In this document: positions 8,268-23,928 of the stretch, piece after piece
How the letters are laid out: each line of letters begins with the position of its first letter
Numbering within the stretch: position 1 is the first letter of the stretch
Assembly: GCF_001269885.1 (NCBI RefSeq)
Contig: NZ_LHVH01000017.1
Coordinates: forward strand, 1 to 64,000
DNA: 64,000 nucleotides
Source of the DNA: Pseudomonas kilonensis
GTDB taxonomy: Bacteria > Pseudomonadota > Gammaproteobacteria > Pseudomonadales > Pseudomonadaceae
Reading direction: 5' to 3'
Made by a program: the position numbers and the translations under genes
Notes under the pieces: generated by a model
Seen by the model: the letters and a program-made list of their open reading frames with translations, nothing else
The model's database searches: none
What the model was told of the DNA's origin: nothing

Positions 8268-9002
8268 ATGCGTGTCGCCATACTGGACGATGAACCGGCC
8301 GAGCTGCGCCGGGTAGAACAGACCCTGCAACAAATCCCCGGCAGGGGCGAGCAAGCCTGGACCCTGCACAGCTTTGAGCGAGGCGAGGACTTGTTGCGGC
8401 AACTGCGCCGGGAAACCTTCGACCTGTTGATCCTCGACTGGCAACTGCCGGACATCAGCGGGCTTTCATTGCTGCGCTGGACCCGCGAGCACATGGATTC
8501 GCCACCGGCCGCCATCATGCTGACCAGCCGCGACGGCGAGCACGACATCGTCCAGGCCCTCAACGCCGGTGCCGACGACTATGTGAGCAAACCCTTTCGG
8601 CCCAACGAGCTCAAGGCCCGGGTCACCGCTGTGCTGCGCCGTCACAACCTGCAACGCGCGCCCGCCAGCGACGTGCTGGTGTTCAACGACCTGGCGTTCG
8701 ACGACGCCGAGCTGACCATTACCCGCGCCGGCATACCCATCAGCCTGACCGAGCGAGAATACCGCCTGGCCCGGTGCCTGTTCGCCAACCTGGGCCGGCC
8801 ACTGTCTCGGGAGTATTTCTACGAACGCTTCTGGACCCACGAGGAAATGACCTCGTCCCGCCCGCTCGATACCCACATCTATCGCCTGCGCAACAAGCTC
8901 GGGCTGACGGCGGATCGGGGTTGGCAATTACTGACGATTTATGGGTATGGGTATCGGTTGGAGAATGTGGCGGCGGGAAGTGAGGCGTCTGTCGCGAGTT
9001 AG
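8268..9002 (+). CDS. OmpR/PhoB-family response regulator
   Basis: 244 aa. The receiver domain (residues 1-120) has acidic Asp7/Asp8, phosphoacceptor Asp57 in LILDWQLPD and the conserved Lys of VSKPF near 110. A winged-helix DNA-binding domain follows (about 135-235), ending TIYGYGYRLENV. ATG 8268 (MRVAILDDE) has AAGGA ten bases upstream; the longer open frame has no receiver homology. It is divergently transcribed from the neighbouring kinase with about 220 bp between. It presumably controls its own locus and perhaps the permease next door; targets cannot be read from the sequence. Confidence 0.9.
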   Translation: MRVAILDDEPAELRRVEQTLQQIPGRGEQAWTLHSFERGEDLLRQLRRETFDLLILDWQLPDISGLSLLRWTREHMDSPPAAIMLTSRDGEHDIVQALNAGADDYVSKPFRPNELKARVTAVLRRHNLQRAPASDVLVFNDLAFDDAELTITRAGIPISLTEREYRLARCLFANLGRPLSREYFYERFWTHEEMTSSRPLDTHIYRLRNKLGLTADRGWQLLTIYGYGYRLENVAAGSEASVAS

Positions 9003-9018
9003 GTATTTGATTACATCC

Positions 9019-9046
9019 GTGGCGAGGGGATTTATCCCCTCGCCAC
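9019..9046. repeat. REP palindrome
   Basis: GTGGCGAGGGGAT at 9019-9031 is mirrored by ATCCCCTCGCCAC at 9034-9046. This is a near-perfect hairpin between convergent genes (response regulator and permease), of the same family as the arms at 44894 and 48470. It may also act as a transcript end. Confidence 0.8.
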
Positions 9047-9054
9047 AATGGATA

Positions 9055-10449
9055 TCAGCCGATCGTCTGTACCAGGCTTCCTGCCTTTGCGATCCGGCGG
9101 CGCTGTATCAGCAATCCGGACACCACCACCAAAACACTCAGCAGCCCCGTCGCCAGGATCTCTACACGATGGGCTTCCTGGAACAGCATGATGGTCAAGG
9201 CCCCGACGATGAAGACAATCACCGCGTAGGTCAGGCCGGGGAACAGCCACATGCTGAAAGCGACTTTTTCACCACGCGCCATGCGTTGCTTGCGCATGCG
9301 CAGCTGCGAAACCGCGATGACCAGATACACCAGCAATGCAATGGCACCGGAGCTGGCCAGCAGGAAATCAAACACCGCAGCCGGCGCCACGTAGTTGGCG
9401 AATACCGCCAAAAAGGCCGCACCGGTCGACAGCATCACCGCCCAGTAAGGTGTACCGCTCTTGTTGGTGCGCTGGGAAACGGCCGGCGCATCACCACGCT
9501 TGCCCAACGAGAACATCATCCGCGACGCCGTATACAGCGCCGAGTTCAGGCAGCTCGTGACCGCTACCAGGACGACGATATCGACGATCAGTTTGGCATT
9601 GGGGATGCCCATGCGCTCCAGCACCGTCTGGTAGGAACCGACGCTGGCCAGGAGCGGATCGTTCCACGGCACCAGGGCGACAACGATGAAGATGGACACA
9701 AGATAGAACAAGCCAATCCGCCAGATAACCGAGTTGGTCGCCTTGGAAATCTGCTGGCCAGGGTTCTTCGATTCGGCCGCCGCGATGGTCACGATCTCGG
9801 TGCCCATGAACGAAAACATGGTGGTCAGGATTGCCCCCAACACCGCGCCCATACCGTTGGGCAGGAAGCCCTGGGTGTCGAACAGGTGTGAAACACCGCT
9901 GACCTGGCTGGTGGGCAGCACGCCGAAGATCGCCATCACCCCCAGGCCAATGAAGCCGATGATCGCCACCACCTTGACCAGGGCGAACCAGAATTCAAAT
10001 TCCCCGTAATTCTTCACGCTGAACAGGTTGGTGACCGTCAACAGCAGAGTAATGACCAGCGTGAAGGCCCAGATTGCAACGTCCGGGAACCACGCATGAA
10101 GAATCGTTGCGGCAGCGTTGGCTTCCAGCGGAATCACCAGAACCCAGAACCACCAGTAGAGCCAGCCGATGGTGAAACCGGCCCAATGCCCAATCGCACG
10201 GTCAGCATACGTCGAGAAGGAGCCAGTGTCCGGCGACGCCACCGCCATTTCGCCCAGCATCCGCATCACCAGCACCACCAGGGCACCCGCGGCAGCGTAA
10301 GCCAGCAGCACGGCTGGACCGGCCGCGGCGATAGCGTGGCCGGAGCCAACGAAAAGGCCAGCGCCGATGACGCCGGCGATGGATAGCATCGTCACATGCC
10401 GGGGTTTGAGCCCTTGCTCCAGATGATTGGAAGTTTGCGTACCGCTCAT
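9055..10449 (-). CDS. gabP: Amino acid permease of the APC family, probable GABA permease
   Basis: 464 aa with about 12 hydrophobic segments. It begins with the AAT-family signature around LKPRHVTMLSIAGVIGAGLF and contains GEMAVASPDTGSFSTYADRAIG and NSALYTASRM. Length and motifs fit GabP-type proton symporters for 4-aminobutyrate; a related basic or aromatic amino acid substrate is possible. ATG 10449 (MSGTQTSN) has AAGGG about nine bases upstream; the frame extends to 10485 without a better start. No gab catabolic genes are adjacent. Confidence 0.82.
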   Translation of the reverse strand: MSGTQTSNHLEQGLKPRHVTMLSIAGVIGAGLFVGSGHAIAAAGPAVLLAYAAAGALVVLVMRMLGEMAVASPDTGSFSTYADRAIGHWAGFTIGWLYWWFWVLVIPLEANAAATILHAWFPDVAIWAFTLVITLLLTVTNLFSVKNYGEFEFWFALVKVVAIIGFIGLGVMAIFGVLPTSQVSGVSHLFDTQGFLPNGMGAVLGAILTTMFSFMGTEIVTIAAAESKNPGQQISKATNSVIWRIGLFYLVSIFIVVALVPWNDPLLASVGSYQTVLERMGIPNAKLIVDIVVLVAVTSCLNSALYTASRMMFSLGKRGDAPAVSQRTNKSGTPYWAVMLSTGAAFLAVFANYVAPAAVFDFLLASSGAIALLVYLVIAVSQLRMRKQRMARGEKVAFSMWLFPGLTYAVIVFIVGALTIMLFQEAHRVEILATGLLSVLVVVSGLLIQRRRIAKAGSLVQTIG

Positions 10450-10695
10450 TGAGACTACCCTTGGTATTGGATTTATTCGTGTCACCTCGTACCCACCGCT
10501 CCCCTGTCAATTTAAAGAAACGATGTGTAATTTATTTAATACGCAAGTTCTGCGCCAGAAAATCTGAGGCCCCGTTATCCGGGGGCTCTCACCCCGCACC
10601 TAACCCATTGAGCGTGAAGGCTTTGTGCCAAGGTGTTACCGAGTTACCCCCGTTTTTACCCACAGGCCTGAACAGGGTGCACGTTTTTAAAGCGT

Positions 10696-10730
10696 AAAAA
10701 AAAGCCAACGCATAAGCGTTGGCTTTTTTT
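10696..10730 (-). terminator. gyrB terminator (symmetrical)
   Basis: GCCAACGC (10704-10711) and GCGTTGGC (10716-10723) form a perfect 8-bp stem with a 4-base loop, flanked by A8 and T7 runs. It lies 22 bp past the gyrB stop. The rest of the 302-bp gap up to the permease start holds its promoter region and no gene that I can see. Confidence 0.92.
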
Positions 10731-10751
10731 GGAGCGGTGCTGCTGAAGGGA

Positions 10752-14278
<3,527 letters not shown>

Positions 14279-15447: not shown

Positions 15448-16974
15448 TCAAGTGGTCAGTGTACGCAGCAGGTTCTTGTAGTCCTCGCGGATGTCCGCGT
15501 CGGATTCCTTAAGTTCGTTGATCTTGCGACAGGCGTGCAACACCGTGGTGTGGTCGCGTCCGCCAAACACATCGCCGATTTCCGGCAGGCTGTGGTTGGT
15601 CAGTTCCTTGGACAGGGCCATCGCCACCTGACGCGGACGTGCTACCGAACGCGAACGGCGTTTGGACAGCAGGTCGGAAATCTTGATTTTGTAGTATTCC
15701 GCAACCGTTCGCTGAATGTTATCCACAGAAACCAGTTTGTCCTGGAGCGCCAGCAGGTCCTTCAAGGATTCGCGAATCAACTCGATGGTGATGTCGCGGC
15801 CCATGAAGTGCGAGTGAGCGATCACCCGCTTGAGGGCACCTTCGAGCTCACGCACGTTGGAGCGGATACGCTGGGCGATGAAGAACGCGGCGTCGTGAGG
15901 CAGCTCGACCTTGGCCTGGTCGGCTTTCTTCATCAGGATCGCGACGCGGGTTTCCAGCTCGGGCGGCTCGACGGCCACCGTCAGGCCCCAGCCGAAACGC
16001 GATTTGAGGCGTTCTTCAAGGCCTTCGATTTCTTTCGGGTAGCGGTCACTGGTGAGAATGACCTGCTGCCCGCCTTCAAGCAATGCGTTGAAGGTGTGGA
16101 AAAACTCTTCCTGGGAACGTTCCTTGCGGGCGAAGAACTGAATATCGTCGATCAGCAAGGCGTCCACCGAACGGTAGAAACGCTTGAACTCGTTGATCGC
16201 GTTCAGCTGCAGCGCCTTGACCATGTCGGCCACGAAACGCTCGGAATGCAGGTACACGACCTTGGCATTCGGGTTCTTCTTTAATAGATGGTTGCCCACC
16301 GCATGCATCAAGTGGGTCTTACCCAAGCCGACGCCGCCATAAAGGAAGAGTGGGTTGTAACCATGCTTGGGGTTATCCGCAACCTGCCAGGCCGCCGCGC
16401 GGGCCAGTTGGTTGGATTTACCTTCGACGAAATTCTCGAAGGTGAAGGTCCGGTTCAGGTAGCTGGTGTGCTTGAGCGCACCTTCGACCTGGACGGTGCG
16501 CTGTTCGGCACGCACCGGCGCCTGCTGGGAGCTGGCACCGGCCATCGGGTCGAAGCTGTCCCGGGAGGGCTCTTCGCTGACCTCGGCGACCTTTTGTGCA
16601 TTGCGTTTGCTCGGGGCAGGCGCGGGTGCCGGGGCAGCATGGTTGTTAACCGGTGCCGTTGCAGTCTGCTGGGCCTGTGACGCTGCGGCGGCCAGCGGCG
16701 CGTTGGGTGCGGCGCGCGGTGCCGAGCTGCGCTTGCTGCCTATTAATAAGGACAACGCAGGCGCCATGCCATTGCCATGCTCGTCGAGCAGTTCCATGAC
16801 CCGGCCCAGGTACTTTTCGTTGACCCAGTCGAGAACGAAACGGTTCGGTGCATAGACACGCAACTCGTCGCCTTCGGCTTCGACCTGTAGTGGACGGATC
16901 CAAGTGTTGAATTGTTGGGCAGGCAGCTCATCGCGCAAAAGCTCTACGCACTGCTGCCAAAGTTCCACTGACAC
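15448..16974 (-). CDS. dnaA: Chromosomal replication initiator DnaA
   Basis: 508 aa. AAA+ ATPase that binds DnaA boxes, melts oriC and loads DnaB. Domain I is residues 1-80 ([17 protein letters not shown]). Domain II is a low-complexity Ala/Pro linker at about 80-165, the most variable part. Domain III has Walker A GGVGLGKT (near 213) and Walker B LLIDDIQF. Domain IV ends with the DNA-binding [15 protein letters not shown]. The start is GTG 16974. A perfect DnaA box lies inside the gene (15719-15727), besides those in oriC just upstream, consistent with autoregulation. Confidence 0.98.
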
Positions 16975-17041: not shown

Positions 17042-17388
17042 TTATCCACATGCAGCTTGCTGATCGCCCATGATTTATCAATGCGTTAACGGCGAGAAAG
17101 ACGACAGGCGGTCAGTGGATAAGCTCTGTGGATAACCGGGCCTGAGGTCGTTGCACAAGTGGGGGCGAAAGTCTGTGGGTAACCGCCCTGTGGATAACAG
17201 GGCATTCCACACACAGCTTATCCGACAGCGCAGCACAGGCTGACCACTGCTTTCCCGTGTAGTTGTCATTCTCTGTACATGGCGGATTACAAGGCCTGAG
17301 CATGGTTATCCACAGCAAGGTGGCTGCCTTGCTTTTATAAGCTTTACAGAAAAGCTTTAAATAATTCCCTTCTTTATTTTTATATCTA
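17042..17388. other. oriC: Chromosomal replication origin oriC
   Basis: The dnaA-rpmH gap (16975-17540) holds four perfect DnaA boxes: 17042-17050 (+), 17127-17135 (-), 17189-17197 (-) and 17306-17314 (+). Weaker boxes are AGTGGATAA at 17114, TGTGGGTAA at 17174 and TTATCCGAC at 17218. An AT-rich unwinding region (17331-17388) follows the last box, towards rpmH. This is the normal Pseudomonas origin position. No protein gene is credible in this gap. Confidence 0.96.
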
Positions 17389-17451
17389 GGGCTGGGTGAT
17401 GAATCCGCCGAAGCGCCCGGATATCTATTTAAAGGAAACGCTGGTTGGAAA

Positions 17452-17480
17452 TTGACCTAGAGGCTTGCTTTCTCTAGAAT
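17452..17480 (+). promoter_or_regulatory. rpmH promoter (sigma70 type)
   Basis: TTGACC at 17452-17457 and TAGAAT at 17475-17480 are separated by 17 bases, about 60 bp before rpmH. It is a near-consensus sigma70 promoter, as expected for a ribosomal protein gene. Confidence 0.8.
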
Positions 17481-17540: not shown

Positions 17541-17675
17541 ATGAAACGTACTTTCCAACCAAGCACTATCAAACGCGCTCGTACCCACGGTTTCCGTGCT
17601 CGCATGGCTACCAAGAACGGTCGTGCCGTCCTGTCGCGTCGTCGCGCCAAAGGTCGTGCGCGTCTGGCAGTTTGA
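17541..17675 (+). CDS. rpmH: 50S ribosomal protein L34
   Basis: 44 aa, strongly basic. It begins [18 protein letters not shown] and ends [12 protein letters not shown], the universal L34 pattern. ATG 17541 is preceded by a weak AGGTAA site. It is the first gene of the rpmH-rnpA-yidD-yidC run leading away from oriC. The rnpA start follows 16 bp after the stop. Confidence 0.98.
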
Positions 17676-17691
17676 TAATCCGGCACTGGAG

Positions 17692-18093
17692 GTGAGTCAG
17701 GACTTCAGTCGGGAAAAGCGTCTGCTTACCCCCCGGCATTTCAAGGCAGTCTTTGACTCCCCTACCGGCAAGGTTCCGGGGAAAAATCTCCTGCTCCTTG
17801 CGCGCAGCAACGATCTCGATCACCCCCGACTAGGGCTGGTCATCGGGAAAAAGAGCGTCAAGCTCTCCGTTCAGCGCAATCGCCTCAAACGTCTGATGCG
17901 CGAATCGTTTCGCCTTAACCAGGATTCACTGGTTGGATGGGACATTGTTATCGTCGCGCGCAAAGGTTTGGGTGACGTAGAAAACCCCGAATTGATTCAG
18001 CATTTCGGCAAGCTCTGGAAGCGTCTGGCCCGCAACAAGCCAGTACCAGCAGTCAACACCGAAACTGTAGGGGTAGACAGTCCCGATGCGTAA
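17692..18093 (+). CDS. rnpA: Ribonuclease P protein component
   Basis: 133 aa basic protein cofactor of RNase P, which trims the 5' leader of pre-tRNA. The RNR signature occurs in [12 protein letters not shown] at about 61-72, and [16 protein letters not shown] matches pseudomonad RnpA. The start is GTG 17692 ([10 protein letters not shown]). The only good Shine-Dalgarno, GGAGG at 17688-17692, overlaps this codon, so an unannotated non-ATG start a little upstream (CTG or GTG, overlapping the rpmH end) remains possible. The stop overlaps yidD by 8 bp. Confidence 0.93.
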
Positions 18094-18331
18094 ACTGGCA
18101 CTCGTTCCGATCCAGTTTTACCGCTATGCCATTAGTCCTTTGATGGCCAGTCACTGTCGTTTCTACCCCAGTTGTTCCTGCTACGCGTACGAAGCCATAG
18201 AAAATCATGGCCTACTGCGCGGTGGCTGGCTGACCTTTCGTCGTTTAGGTCGCTGTCATCCGTGGAATCCCGGCGGCTATGACCCGGTTCCGCCTATCCC
18301 TACCTCCCGTTCTTCTTCGATGGCCGAGTAA
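18086..18331 (+). CDS. yidD: Membrane protein insertion efficiency factor YidD
   Basis: 81 aa. Small membrane-associated protein that supports YidC-dependent insertion. The family core is complete: [27 protein letters not shown] and [15 protein letters not shown], with the conserved cysteines. It begins inside the end of rnpA and stops two bases before the yidC start, so it is coupled on both sides. Confidence 0.96.
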
Positions 18332-18333
18332 TC

Positions 18334-20016
18334 ATGGATATCAAACGCACGATCCTGATCGTCGCCCTGGCAATCGTGTCCTACGTCATGGTCCTTAAAT
18401 GGAACCAGGACTATGGCCAGGCTGCCCTGCCGACTCAGAATGTTGCAGCCAGCAATACCGCACCGAGCCTGCCGGATGTCCCAGTTGGCAACAACGCTGC
18501 CAGCAATGACGACATCCCACGCGCGGCAAGCGATACCAGCGCTCCCGCCGAAGCCCCCGTGGTCGTAAGCAAAGATCTCATCCAGATCAAGACGGACGTG
18601 CTCGAGCTGGCAATCGATCCACAGGGTGGTGACGTCGCCCAACTGAAGCTGCCGCTGTACCCGCGTCGCCAGGATCATCCGGAAATCCCGTTCCAGTTGT
18701 TCGACAACGGTAACGAGCGCACCTATCTGGCCCAAAGTGGCCTGATCGGTACCAACGGCCCGGATTCGAGCCCGGCCGGCCGCCCGGTCTATTCCGCCGA
18801 GAAGAAGACTTATCAACTGGCTGACGGTCAGGACCAACTGGTCGTTGACTTGAAGTTCAGCAAGGATGGCGTCAACTACATCAAGCGTTTCACCTTGAAA
18901 CGTGGCCTGTATGACGTAACCGTCTCCTACCTGGTCGACAACCAGAGCGCCCAGCCTTGGTCCGGCGCGATGTTCGCGCAACTCAAGCGTGACGCCAGCG
19001 ACGATCCTTCTTCCAGCACGGCCACCGGCACCGCGACTTACCTGGGCGCTGCCCTGTGGACAAGTTCGGAGCCGTACAAGAAAGTGTCCATGAAGGACAT
19101 GGACAAGGGCCAGGTCAAGGAAACCGTCCAAGGTGGCTGGGTTGCCTGGCTGCAGCACTATTTTGTAACAGCCTGGATCCCGCAGAAGGGCGAAAGCAAC
19201 CTCGTCCAGACGCGTAAAGACAGCAAAGGCAACTACATCGTCGGTTACACCGGTCCGGCATTGACCGCTGCGCCAGGTGCAAAAGTCGAGACCAGCGCCA
19301 TTCTGTATGCCGGTCCAAAAAGCCAGGCCGTCTTGAAAGAGTTGTCCCCAGGTCTGGAACTGACCGTGGACTACGGTTTCCTGTGGTTCATTGCCCAGCC
19401 GATCTTCTGGCTGCTGCAACATATCCACAGCATCGTCGGTAACTGGGGCTGGTCGATCATTTTCCTGACCATGCTGATCAAGGGGATTTTCTTCCCGTTG
19501 TCGGCCGCCAGCTACAAGTCCATGGCGCGCATGCGCGCAGTGGCGCCGAAACTGGCCGCCCTGAAAGAACAACATGGCGATGACCGGCAGAAAATGTCCC
19601 AGGCCATGATGGAGCTGTACAAGAAAGAGAAGATCAACCCGCTGGGTGGATGCTTGCCGATTCTTGTGCAGATGCCTGTGTTCCTGGCGCTGTACTGGGT
19701 TCTGCTGGAAAGCGTGGAGATGCGTCAGGCACCGTTCATGCTGTGGATTACCGACCTGTCGATCAAGGATCCGTTCTTCATCCTGCCGATCATCATGGGC
19801 GCGACCATGTTCATCCAGCAGCAGCTGAACCCAACGCCTCCGGATCCGATGCAGGCGAAGGTCATGAAAATGATGCCAATCATCTTCACCTTCTTCTTCC
19901 TGTGGTTCCCGGCTGGCCTTGTGCTGTACTGGGTTGTGAACAACGTGCTGTCCATCACTCAGCAGTGGTACATCACGCGTAAGATCGAAGCGGCTGCGAA
20001 AAAAGCCGAGGCGTAA
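18334..20016 (+). CDS. yidC: Membrane protein insertase YidC
   Basis: 560 aa, typical of Gram-negative YidC. Inserts and folds inner-membrane proteins alone or with SecYEG; FoF1 subunit c, encoded 8 kb away, is a classic client. TM1 is residues 5-21, followed by a large periplasmic beta-domain to about 350. The conserved core has five further segments (GWSIIFLTMLIKGIFFPL, PVFLALYWVLLESVEMRQAP, MMPIIFTFFFLWFPAGLVLY) and a basic C-terminal tail (KIEAAAKKAEA). A perfect DnaA box lies 8 bp after the stop (20024-20032). Confidence 0.98.
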   Translation: MDIKRTILIVALAIVSYVMVLKWNQDYGQAALPTQNVAASNTAPSLPDVPVGNNAASNDDIPRAASDTSAPAEAPVVVSKDLIQIKTDVLELAIDPQGGDVAQLKLPLYPRRQDHPEIPFQLFDNGNERTYLAQSGLIGTNGPDSSPAGRPVYSAEKKTYQLADGQDQLVVDLKFSKDGVNYIKRFTLKRGLYDVTVSYLVDNQSAQPWSGAMFAQLKRDASDDPSSSTATGTATYLGAALWTSSEPYKKVSMKDMDKGQVKETVQGGWVAWLQHYFVTAWIPQKGESNLVQTRKDSKGNYIVGYTGPALTAAPGAKVETSAILYAGPKSQAVLKELSPGLELTVDYGFLWFIAQPIFWLLQHIHSIVGNWGWSIIFLTMLIKGIFFPLSAASYKSMARMRAVAPKLAALKEQHGDDRQKMSQAMMELYKKEKINPLGGCLPILVQMPVFLALYWVLLESVEMRQAPFMLWITDLSIKDPFFILPIIMGATMFIQQQLNPTPPDPMQAKVMKMMPIIFTFFFLWFPAGLVLYWVVNNVLSITQQWYITRKIEAAAKKAEA

Positions 20017-20038
20017 CTTGCTCTGTGGATAACCACAC

Positions 20039-20063
20039 AAAACGCCCCCTAGTGGGGCGTTTT
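20039..20063 (+). terminator. yidC terminator
   Basis: AAAACGCCCC (20039-20048) pairs with GGGGCGTTTT (20054-20063), giving a strong stem that ends in T residues 20 bp after the yidC stop. mnmE starts 33 bp later. Confidence 0.88.
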
Positions 20064-20095
20064 GCTATCTGCCACTTTTGTCTGGATACCGGTTT

Positions 20096-21466
20096 ATGAG
20101 CGCTCCGCGTGAAACCATCGCCGCCGTTGCCACCGCCCAAGGTCGCGGCGGTGTCGGCATCGTCCGTATTTCGGGGCCCTTGGCCAGTGTTGCGGCCAAG
20201 GCTATCAGCGGTCGCGAACTCAAGCCGCGGTTTGCTCATTACGGCCCGTTTTTCAGTGCTGACCAGCAGGTGCTCGACGAGGGGCTGGCCTTGTATTTCC
20301 CGGGGCCGAATTCGTTCACCGGCGAAGACGTACTGGAACTGCAAGGACACGGCGGCCCCATCGTGCTGGACATGCTGCTCAAGCGTTGCCTGGAACTGGG
20401 CTGTCGCCTGGCCAGGCCGGGTGAGTTCAGTGAACGGGCCTTCCTCAACGACAAGCTCGACCTGGCCCAGGCCGAGGCGATTGCCGATTTGATCGAAGCC
20501 AGTTCGGCACAAGCGGCACGCAACGCATTGCGTTCCTTGCAGGGTGCGTTTTCCCAACGTGTGCATAACCTCACCGAGCAATTGATCGGCCTGCGGATTT
20601 ATGTCGAGGCCGCGATTGATTTCCCGGAAGAGGAAATCGATTTTCTTGCCGATGGCCACGTGCTGAGCCTGCTGGATAAAGTGCGCGATGAGTTATCCAC
20701 AGTACTGCGCGAAGCCGGGCAGGGTGCCTTGCTGCGCGATGGGATGACCGTGGTGATCGCCGGACGGCCGAATGCCGGTAAGTCCAGCTTGTTGAATGCC
20801 CTGGCCGGTCGCGAAGCGGCGATCGTCACCGAGATCGCCGGCACCACCCGGGACATCCTGCGTGAACATATCCACATCGACGGCATGCCGCTGCACGTAG
20901 TGGATACCGCAGGTTTGCGCGACACCGATGACCAGGTGGAAAAAATCGGCGTGGAACGGGCTCTGAAGGCCATTGGTGAAGCCGACCGGGTATTGTTGGT
21001 GGTCGATGCCACCGCGCCGGAAGCCGACGATCCATTTGCCTTGTGGCCTGAATTCCTCGAGGTCCGCCCGGATCCCGCGAAAGTCACGCTGATTCGCAAC
21101 AAGGCCGACCTGACCGGGGAAGCGATTGTCCTTGAGGTCAGCAACGACGGCCATGTGACCATCAGCCTGAGCGCGAAGTCAGCGGGTGAGGGCTTGGAAC
21201 TGCTGCGCGAGCACCTCAAGGCCTGCATGGGCTACGAGCAGACGTCGGAAAGCAGCTTCAGCGCCCGCCGGCGGCATCTTGAAGCCCTGCGCCATGCCAG
21301 TGCCGCCCTGGAACACGGTCGCGCGCAGCTGACCTTGGCGGGGGCGGGTGAGTTGTTGGCCGAAGACCTGCGCCAGGCCCAACATTCCCTAGGGGAAATT
21401 ACCGGCGCCTTCAGCTCCGATGACTTGCTGGGGCGGATCTTTTCCAGCTTCTGCATCGGTAAATAA
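20096..21466 (+). CDS. mnmE: tRNA modification GTPase MnmE
   Basis: 456 aa. With MnmG it builds the cmnm5 group on U34 of several tRNAs. The N-terminal domain binds folate; the central G domain has GRPNAGKSS (G1, near 223) and DTAGLRDT (G3); the C-terminal CIGK carries the catalytic Cys. ATG 20096 ([10 protein letters not shown]) is preferred over TTG 20078 because homology starts there. A perfect DnaA box is inside the gene at 20693-20701. Its partner mnmG follows after an unusual 563-bp gap. Confidence 0.97.
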
Positions 21467-21530: not shown

Positions 21531-21605
21531 CTCTCTTTTTTAAACTGATTGCCCTTCATGGCGGCTTGCCTGTGGACGCTGCGGCGGTCCATCGCGGCGG
21601 TTTTC

Positions 21606-21878
21606 TGTGGATTAAGCCCTGTGAATAACTGCCATTGAGGTCGGTTGATAAACCCCCTTCAAAACTGAAGATAACCGCCTCTGTGGATAACAGGCCCATT
21701 CATCCACAGGCTTACACCGGTTATCCAAGCCCCTCATTGCCACCTGACCACAGGGTTTTGAATCTCTGTACACATTGAAAATAAAGGCCTGTAGAACGTT
21801 ATCCACAGATAGATGGCTCAGTAAGAATAAACATAAAAACAAAGATTTTATAAATTTCTTTCTTTTTTATTTTTTTAA
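21606..21878. other. Second origin-like DnaA-box cluster with AT-rich tail (oriC paralogue)
   Basis: Perfect DnaA boxes lie at 21682-21690 (-) and 21799-21807 (+). One-mismatch boxes lie at 21606 (TGTGGATTA), 21620 (TGTGAATAA) and 21700 (TCATCCACA). An AT-rich run covers 21822-21878. The layout follows oriC closely: boxes at 17127, 17189 and 17306, plus the words TGAGGTCG, CTCTGTACA and AAGGCCTG, all recur exactly 4493 bp further on. From memory, two autonomously replicating fragments have been reported for this part of Pseudomonas chromosomes. Whether this one fires here cannot be told from sequence. Confidence 0.85.
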
Positions 21879-21941
21879 CCGCGAGTTCTCCACAGCTGGT
21901 TAAATTTTGTGCAAAGGGTTCTTTAGAAAGGGCGAAGTCCC

Positions 21942-22029: not shown

Positions 22030-23928
22030 GTGGATTTCCCTTCCCGTTTTGAAGTGATCGTCATCGGCGGCGGTCATGCCGGTACCGAGGCAGCACTTGC
22101 ATCAGCACGCATGGGGGCAAAAACCCTGTTGCTGACGCATAACGTGGAAACCCTCGGAGCCATGAGCTGCAACCCTGCCATCGGTGGCATCGGCAAAAGC
22201 CACCTGGTCAAGGAAATCGATGCCCTAGGCGGCGCGATGGCCATGGCCACCGACAAGGGTGGTATCCAGTTTCGCGTGTTGAACAGCCGCAAAGGCCCGG
22301 CCGTACGCGCTACTCGCGCCCAGGCCGACCGCGTCCTGTACAAGGCCGCTGTCCGTGAAATCCTGGAAAACCAGCCGAACCTGTGGATATTTCAACAAGC
22401 GGCCGATGACCTGATCGTCGAGCAGGACCAGGTGCGCGGTGTCGTCACGCAAATGGGTCTGCGGTTCTTCGCCGATTCCGTGGTGTTGACCACCGGGACC
22501 TTCCTCGGCGGACTTATCCACATCGGTTTGCAGAATTTTTCCGGCGGCCGCGCCGGTGATCCGCCGTCGATTGCTCTGGCTCACCGTCTGCGTGAGTTGC
22601 CATTGCGTGTCGGGCGCCTGAAAACCGGTACGCCACCTCGCATCGACGGCAAGTCCGTGGATTTCTCGGTGATGACCGAGCAGCCTGGCGATACGCCGAT
22701 CCCGGTGATGTCGTTCATGGGCAACAAGGAACAGCATCCACGGCAAGTCAGTTGCTGGATCACCCACACCAACGCCCGCACCCACGAAATCATCGCGGCG
22801 AACCTCGATCGTTCGCCGATGTATTCCGCTGCCGGTGAAATCGAAGGTGTCGGCCCGCGCTATTGCCCGTCGATTGAAGACAAGATCCATCGCTTTGCCG
22901 ACAAGGAAAGCCATCAGGTGTTCATCGAACCGGAAGGTTTGACCACCCATGAGTTGTATCCGAACGGGATATCCACAAGTCTGCCGTTCGACGTGCAATT
23001 GCAGATCGTGCAATCGATCCGTGGCATGGAGAACGCGCACATCGTGCGTCCGGGTTATGCGATCGAGTACGACTACTTCGATCCGCGCGATTTGAAGTAC
23101 AGCCTGGAAACCAAAGCTATCGGCGGTCTGTTCTTCGCCGGGCAGATCAACGGCACCACCGGCTACGAAGAAGCGGGTGCCCAGGGTTTGCTCGCCGGAG
23201 CCAACGCCGCACTGCTCGCCAAGGGCAAAGAAGCCTGGTGCCCGCGTCGCGATGAGGCGTACATCGGTGTGTTGGTGGATGACCTGATTACCCTGGGTAC
23301 CCAGGAACCGTATCGGATGTTCACCTCCCGCGCCGAATACCGCCTGATCCTGCGTGAAGACAACGCCGACCTGCGCTTGACCGAGAAGGGGCGCGAACTG
23401 GGGTTGGTGGACGACCTGCGTTGGGCCGCGTTCTGCAAGAAGCGCGAGAGCATCGAGCTGGAAGAGCAGCGGCTGAAAAGCACCTGGGTTCGTCCCGGTA
23501 CCGAGCAAGGCGATGCCATTGCGGCGAAATTCGGCACACCGCTGACCCACGAATACAATCTGCTGAACCTCTTGAGCCGTCCGGAAATCGACTATGTCGG
23601 GCTGGTGGAAGTGACCGGCCAGGGCGCGGAAGATCCGCAAGTGGCCGAACAGGTCGAGATCAAGACCAAGTACGCCGGTTACATCGACCGTCAGCAGGAT
23701 GAAATCGCCCGCCTGCGTGCCAGCGAAGACACCAAGCTGCCTGTGGATATCGATTACACCGGTATTTCCGGGTTGTCGAAAGAAATCCAGAGCAAGCTCG
23801 GTGCGACCCGTCCAGAAACCCTGGGCCAGGCCTCGCGCATTCCCGGCGTCACGCCGGCAGCGATTTCGCTGTTGATGATTCATTTGAAAAAACGCGGCGC
23901 CGGCCGCCAGTTGGAGCAAAGCGCTTGA
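22030..23928 (+). CDS. mnmG: tRNA U34 carboxymethylaminomethylation enzyme MnmG
   Basis: 632 aa FAD protein and MnmE partner. The N-terminal Rossmann motif is GGGHAG at 13-18, followed by the conserved [23 protein letters not shown]. The second signature is [20 protein letters not shown], and the C-terminal domain contacts tRNA and MnmE. The start is GTG 22030 (V-D-F-P-S-R-F-E), with GAGG six bases upstream; the frame is open back to 21907 but without homology. A perfect DnaA box lies at 22514-22522, with one-mismatch TATCCACA-type copies near 22383, 22967 and 23740. The stop overlaps the rsmG start. Confidence 0.97.

Follow-up and report, generated by a model that had tools for sequence, protein, structure and literature searches.

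A colinear and probably homologous second copy of the replication origin module between mnmE and mnmG in Pseudomonas

Introduction

Bacteria are usually described as carrying a single replication origin. The Pseudomonas kilonensis DNA analysed here (contig NZ_LHVH01000017.1, positions 1 to 64,000, hereafter the window) raises the question of whether a second origin module, related to the one next to dnaA, lies between mnmE and mnmG. DnaA boxes near gidA were reportedly described in P. putida by Ogasawara and Yoshikawa in 1992, and according to the title of the 1990 paper by Yee and Smith the Pseudomonas origins form a class of their own, apart from the E. coli type.

The existence of two putative Pseudomonas origins is already known. 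In P. aeruginosa two autonomously replicating fragments were reported as putative origins on one chromosome, one of them essential in laboratory growth, and a non-functional origin may once have been functional (PMC4403523, the available part of which attributes the fragment work to Yee and Smith 1990, Smith 1991 and Jiang 2006). According to the available part of PMC3056050, the P. putida oriC sits between rpmH and dnaA and is distinct from enteric origins. DoriC 10.0 includes two predicted origins for some Gammaproteobacteria, with no shared ancestry stated in the available part of that account (PMC6323995), and the available part of PMC4403523 makes no mention of homology between the fragments. 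In a limited search, the colinear homology of the two Pseudomonas origins was not found in print (Yee and Smith 1990 and Jiang 2006 may contain it), and it is not stated in the available parts of, for example, PMC3642087, PMC3909081, PMC8203912, PMC2099444 and PMC8287927. With the same limit, no publication was found in which the Pseudomonas module is described as shared with origins beside mnmG in the E. coli order.

Results

Layout of the two origin regions

In the window, dnaA (15448-16974, minus strand) is followed on the plus strand by rpmH, rnpA, yidC, mnmE and mnmG. The segment that separates the two copies of the module (17541-21466, plus strand) contains ORFs, with their frames checked, which we take by reading to be rpmH, rnpA, yidC and mnmE. 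Downstream of the second copy lies the mnmG (gidA) ORF (22030-23928, plus strand), and the corresponding E. coli neighbour is annotated as mnmG.

The oriC1 module, on the dnaA-rpmH side (17100-17400, plus strand), consists of a DnaA-box array followed by an AT-rich stretch. A box scan located on its minus strand the boxes a (17114-17122, one mismatch), b (17127-17135, perfect), c (17174-17182, one mismatch) and d (17189-17197, perfect, 62 bp after b), and on its plus strand box f (17306-17314, perfect, 117 bp after d). Box f adjoins the AT-rich stretch, a putative unwinding element whose limits were set by eye (17331-17392). The scan also found a perfect box closest to dnaA (17042-17050, listed on the plus strand), which is present near dnaA in genomes that do not have the remaining module and probably belongs to the dnaA promoter.

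The colinear second copy, oriC2, is found on the mnmE-mnmG side (21593-21890, plus strand). Boxes a’ (21606-21614) and b’ (21620-21628), each with one mismatch, and the perfect box d’ (21682-21690), 62 bp after b’, are on the minus strand, while box e’ (21700-21708, one mismatch, 18 bp after d’) and the perfect box f’ (21799-21807, 117 bp after d’) are on the plus strand, all located by the same scan. An AT-rich stretch, again with limits set by eye (21818-21880), follows as a putative unwinding element, and oriC2 combines two features of a DnaA-dependent oriC, a DnaA-box cluster and an adjoining AT-rich putative unwinding element. The pair formed by boxes d and e in oriC2 has counterparts at certain oriC1 sites, L047 among them, and at the E. 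coli-order origins L213, L220, L227 and L238.

Promoter-like and terminator-like sites were not in excess over shuffled sequences (2 vs 2.1 and 5 vs 5.4, respectively); a site at 17452-17480 could be an rpmH promoter, judged solely from where it lies. A further perfect DnaA box (20024-20032) is located just after yidC, ahead of a GC-rich hairpin that was recognised by eye and not listed by the terminator-like scan, and a box on the same strand with at most one mismatch was found no more than 80 nt past yidC in 27 of 60 family regions. Sites resembling parS, which match the consensus perfectly or with one mismatch, lie at positions 13212, 13842, 53282 and 62766.

Register match between oriC1 and oriC2

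The initial annotation had paired three boxes and three words between the two regions at one constant offset. All twelve coordinates were correct, and each pair was exactly 4493 bp apart: the boxes at 17127 and 21620, 17189 and 21682, and 17306 and 21799, together with the words TGAGGTCG, CTCTGTACA (17271-17279 and 21764-21772, plus strand) and AAGGCCTG. The spacing of 117 bp was likewise the same from 17189 to 17306 and from 21682 to 21799. Counting both strands, the window contains no copies of the non-box motifs TGAGGTCG and CTCTGTACA other than these pairs; AAGGCCTG, with eight plus-strand and 13 minus-strand occurrences, is by itself weak evidence.

Along the +4493 diagonal 119 of 231 positions were identical, and the 62,990 other diagonals reached at most 37.2%. 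When the boxes were masked at three levels of strictness, this diagonal still ranked first, with 81/176, 75/157 and 56/111 identities (46.0, 47.8 and 50.5%), compared with at most 40.9, 40.9 and 43.0% for the best of the others. A masked local alignment of oriC1 with oriC2 was equalled by none of 1000 dinucleotide shuffles at any of the three levels. The masked end-to-end alignment of the window pair, the scoring of which charged each masked position, was not significant (210, 585 and 487 of 1000 shuffles scored as high). The initial annotation had proposed to give up common descent should the masked alignment be no better than that of shuffled sequence; by local alignment and register the idea stands, and by end-to-end scoring it would fall.

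This question is settled by comparison of many genomes. In the 42 genomes with both copies at the 62/117 spacing, 2310 of 5048 non-box positions (45.8%) were identical in register, and shifting the register by 1 to 12 positions gave at most 31.9%. The earlier view that the elements represent more than a chance cluster of DnaA boxes is borne out by these values and by the first rank of the masked register. Because in-register non-box identity and the 62/117 spacing recur through the family, oriC2 is, as judged from these alignments, an old homologous copy of the origin module and no chance cluster of boxes.

Conservation of both copies in Pseudomonadaceae

Besides the window, the comparison covered 40 regions of the genus and 20 of other family genera; 61 mnmG-side and 56 dnaA-side regions were available. 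A 601-bp query covering oriC2 and the start of mnmG matched all 59 genus genomes (59/59), with matches limited to short pieces in the most distant genomes. A core comprising boxes b, d and f was identified in 54 of the 56 dnaA-side and 59 of the 61 mnmG-side regions, and exactly 62/117 was the best of 25 allowed spacings in 47/54 and 54/59 of these cores, respectively. A profile of the dnaA-side cores matched 58 of the 61 mnmG-side regions (median 116 bits), and the profile of the mnmG-side cores matched 54 of the 56 dnaA-side regions (median 112 bits). Spacings and non-box sequence are common to the family and each profile finds the other copy, in agreement with the ancient duplicated module of common descent that had been proposed.

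When named genomes were scanned for pairs of perfect boxes with a spacing of 116-118 bp, at least 120 stretches were obtained, and these were sorted by their distance to dnaA, rpmH or mnmG. Among the matches listed, all 99 in Pseudomonas or Stutzerimonas were at the two sites (86 at dnaA-rpmH and 13 at mnmG), and the 24 in other taxa were near dnaA (12), near mnmG (one, in Salinisphaera) or elsewhere (11). Ten of the matches listed were Microbacterium stretches with perfect boxes exactly 116 bp apart near dnaA (including L311, L320, L341, L352, L354, L366 and L376).

The initial annotation had regarded one copy as possibly degenerating or specialised, given the weaker boxes of oriC2. Over 52 genomes the oriC2 boxes were indeed weaker on average: mean mismatches in oriC1 and oriC2 were 0.13 vs 1.00 for box b, 0.48 vs 0.58 for box d and 0.33 vs 0.48 for box f. 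However, degeneration is too strong a term, since the AT-rich stretch is full (mean A+T over 60 nt beside box f of 78% in oriC2 and 74% in oriC1, same genomes) and the core is present in 59 of the 61 regions. No core was detected in L084 (both sites), L087 (mnmG side) and L085 (dnaA side, cut by the end of the locus); the dnaA side of L084 scored 18.5 bits with another profile. The mnmE-mnmG gap is 72 bp in L084 and 243 bp in L087, both from other genera of the family, and the lack of a detected mnmG-side core in these two indicates that oriC2 can be lost.

Within the genus, the distance from rpmH to mnmG ranges from 4.3 to 9.2 kb. The mnmE-mnmG gap exceeds 2.5 kb in 12 of the 40 genus regions (L033, L036, L040, L043, L046, L048, L049, L052, L059, L060, L061 and L068), and the oriC2 boxes are still beside mnmG. 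In L048, the extra sequence between mnmE and oriC2 (8289-12289) contains ORFs that on reading resemble TonB-dependent receptor, FecR-like and sigma-factor-like genes.

Similarity to mnmG-side origins of the E. coli order

The E. coli oriC lies, like oriC2, directly upstream of mnmG with its AT-rich side facing that gene. The mnmG-side copy therefore has the position and orientation of E. coli oriC, a likeness that the initial annotation had not foreseen. The boxes that we take to be those named R4, R2 and R1 have the minus, minus, plus order of the Pseudomonas module, and R4 to R1 spans 180 bp compared with 179 bp from b to f. The two differ in inner spacing (74/106 for R4-R2-R1 and 62/117 in Pseudomonas) and in GATC sites, of which E. 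coli oriC has 12 in 300 nt and either copy of the window has none.

The best 30 mnmG loci from 40 E. coli-order genomes were analysed with o1 and o2, the profiles of the two Pseudomonas copies. An arrangement like R4-R2-R1 was found in 15 of these 30 loci, with totals of 177-181 bp where 170-190 bp were allowed. On the expected strand o1 matched 15 and o2 matched 13 of the 30 loci, whereas on the opposite strand each matched one. Scores exceeded those of all 20 box-preserving shuffles, in which the boxes are kept and the filler alone is shuffled, in 20/30 loci for o1 and 18/30 for o2 (about 1.4 expected by chance). These matches give good support for homology between the Pseudomonas module and the mnmG-side origins of many members of the E. 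coli order.

For E. coli oriC itself, four profiles were tried: o1, o2 and two further ones (out2 and ‘all’). The o1 profile aligned R4, R2 and R1 with b, d and f at 14.1 bits, a score reached by 4 of 1000 decoys with true spacing and 1 of 1000 with random spacing. The corresponding counts were 2 and 4 of 1000 for out2 and 21 and 10 of 1000 for ‘all’, and the o2 profile failed (2.2 bits, with 813 and 836 of 1000 decoys as high). Homology with E. coli's own oriC is only suggestive.

Distribution and history of the module in the order of the window

Outside the family, mnmG-side outgroup regions scored above all of their own box-preserving shuffles in 21/38 cases with o1 and 18/38 with o2, and dnaA-side outgroup regions in 10/29 and 8/29. 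In family f144 the module was found at mnmG only (three genomes; L242-L244, L263-L265). From family f150, 16 genomes were sampled, with 15 dnaA and 15 mnmG loci read: six had a clear module at both sites (G341, G336, G244, G335, G285 and G340), G342 had it at dnaA only, and the remaining ones were weaker, unreadable or without it. Thirty further genomes included one with both copies (G264), five with the module at dnaA only (G270, G273, G256, G278 and G274) and six with it at mnmG only (G271, G279, G245, G246 and two f149 genomes, f149 by box geometry alone); in the other 18 the signal was weak, one side could not be read or no module was found. L114 carries both copies, and L117 and L116 have a dnaA-side module, weak in L116. 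As read from these matches, the module is found at mnmG, at dnaA or at both, lineage by lineage, within the order of the window, a distribution that had not been anticipated.

Other arrangements were also seen. In L262, L280 and L274 of family f150, DnaA boxes occur in runs of four, at intervals of about 11 bp; L274 has two of these runs in facing orientation, next to a strong profile match (75-80 bits). In G333 and G338 the matched dnaA and mnmG parts are only ~1.3-1.4 kb apart.

A single gain of oriC1 on the Pseudomonadaceae stem was considered, because the first outgroups seemed to have the module at mnmG only; it was withdrawn, because six f150 genomes hold both copies and several outgroups have the dnaA-side one only. 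In a tree of 72 cores picked as clear matches (L301 and L310 fit the profile only in part), placing all 30 dnaA-side cores in one clade was rejected (AU p 0.0008). The copies of G264 were sisters in this tree (96/96), and they were also mutual best pairwise matches. In a family-centred tree, dnaA-side cores as one clade were not rejected (AU p 0.353). Both trees are based on about 290 columns and contain many open forks; L128, oddly placed in the species tree, was given no weight. On the 72-core tree, a single old split of the module into two site types is rejected.

Copies from the same genome were more alike than random pairs (34.7 vs 27.0, with 5000 permutations reaching at most 31.6). They were no closer to each other than to the copies of the nearest relative (closer in 22/53, p 0.37), and ongoing gene conversion at the strain level is unsupported by this count. 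The copies seem to co-evolve at the level of clades, perhaps through rare conversion or shared binding proteins.

Strand skew and the start of replication

If replication started at mnmG, then yidC and mnmE, which lie between the copies, should show the opposite strand skew. The skew was measured at fourfold sites as yidC plus mnmE minus mnmG, rsmG, parA and parB; this four-gene reference replaced the first part of mnmG alone, which was unreliable. The window had a value of +0.030; across five genus genomes, the window among them, values ranged from -0.088 to +0.102 (mean +0.024). No turn of the skew at oriC2 was found in the genus, where yidC and mnmE have the skew of the genes to the right of oriC2. 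Nine genomes of other family genera were mildly negative (mean -0.067).

Outgroups with the module at mnmG and not at dnaA had a mean of -0.230 (n = 13, excluding L114, which has both copies, and L107, which had no value), as against -0.034 in 14 Pseudomonadaceae with both copies (p 0.0003); the labels first used for this grouping were partly circular, the training set of the ‘all’ profile having included part of these loci. In a stricter set, seven outgroups whose dnaA side was read and empty, the mean was -0.200 (p 0.005 vs the family genomes with both copies); since the genomes are related, these p values are too optimistic. Four genomes with only a dnaA-side module had a mean of +0.033. 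Three outgroups with mnmG-type skew (L100, L103 and L105) had no module detected at either site.

The skew suggests that replication starts on the dnaA side, at oriC1, in Pseudomonas and on the mnmG side in lineages with the module at mnmG only. In the other Pseudomonadaceae genera the skew is intermediate between a dnaA-side and an mnmG-side start.

Discussion

The mnmE-mnmG region probably contains a homologous, colinear copy of the origin module, with oriC2 as a weaker secondary origin and with a module that was copied or converted repeatedly. By analogy with the known action of DnaA at oriC, DnaA would fill boxes b, d and f at each copy, the b-d-f spacing would set the geometry of the DnaA complex, and this complex would open the AT-rich stretch next to box f. 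The main start site in Pseudomonas would be the copy on the dnaA side; oriC2 would be retained as a secondary origin, weaker or conditional, to which DnaA also binds and which possibly affects mnmG. Copying or conversion between the two sites would have happened more than once, with lineages retaining one copy or both. In its present role, oriC2 would most likely serve as a secondary origin that was retained, or as a DnaA-binding site.

The initial annotation had pointed to two plasmid-replicating fragments from this part of Pseudomonas chromosomes; such fragments are reported for P. aeruginosa, and their map position is not given in the available part of that source (PMC4403523). We infer that oriC2 corresponds to the second of them.

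A broader proposal may hold, and we put it forward tentatively: a module of ~250 bp, having repeatedly copied itself between the sites that flank the rpmH-mnmE segment, would be the origin across Pseudomonadales and the order of E. coli, and Pseudomonas would be a two-copy intermediate in which both copies are still workable.

It is possible, if somewhat doubtful, that oriC2 is no origin now and that it was kept for binding DnaA, as a titration site or as a regulator of mnmG. Such a role would be consistent with its weaker boxes, with the dnaA-side start to which the skew of the genus points, and with the inessential P. aeruginosa fragment (available part of PMC4403523), which would also fit a relic. 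However, oriC2 retains its AT-rich stretch together with the exact b-d-f geometry, and titration should need neither; two P. aeruginosa fragments also replicate autonomously (same source), if oriC2 is indeed one of them.

Rather unlikely is a single ancient duplication followed by loss of either copy in different lineages, with no repeated copying. The presence of both copies in Pseudomonadaceae, six f150 genomes and G264, with single copies scattered elsewhere, would follow naturally from it, and the family-centred tree leaves room for a dnaA-side clade. Once outgroup cores are included that clade is rejected, and the sister relationship and mutual best match of the G264 copies argue against it, a pattern that later gene conversion could mimic.

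Convergence, in which the geometry of DnaA imposes equal spacing at any origin in the absence of common descent, would account for the presumably independent 116-bp spacing among the Microbacterium matches listed; it is very improbable, given that non-box sequence agrees in register in the window pair and in 42 genomes, that profile scores collapse once the filler alone is shuffled, and that non-box words of 8 and 9 bases occur in the window only as this pair. A bipartite origin as in B. subtilis or H. pylori, which likewise have two DnaA-box clusters near dnaA (available part of PMC4285127), with both clusters cooperating across a spacer of a few kb, is hardly credible here, where each cluster has its own AT-rich stretch, the distance between them varies within the genus and some genomes have one copy only.

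Under the preferred reading, that of a homologous origin copy beside mnmG, a single module, placed at different sites, may underlie two origin types that look unlike. Should both types share the module, and should it have been moved between the two sites through duplication, what separates dnaA-side from gidA-side origins would become a traceable event. Pseudomonas would then represent a two-copy intermediate, in which the use of two homologous origins by one chromosome could easily be tested.
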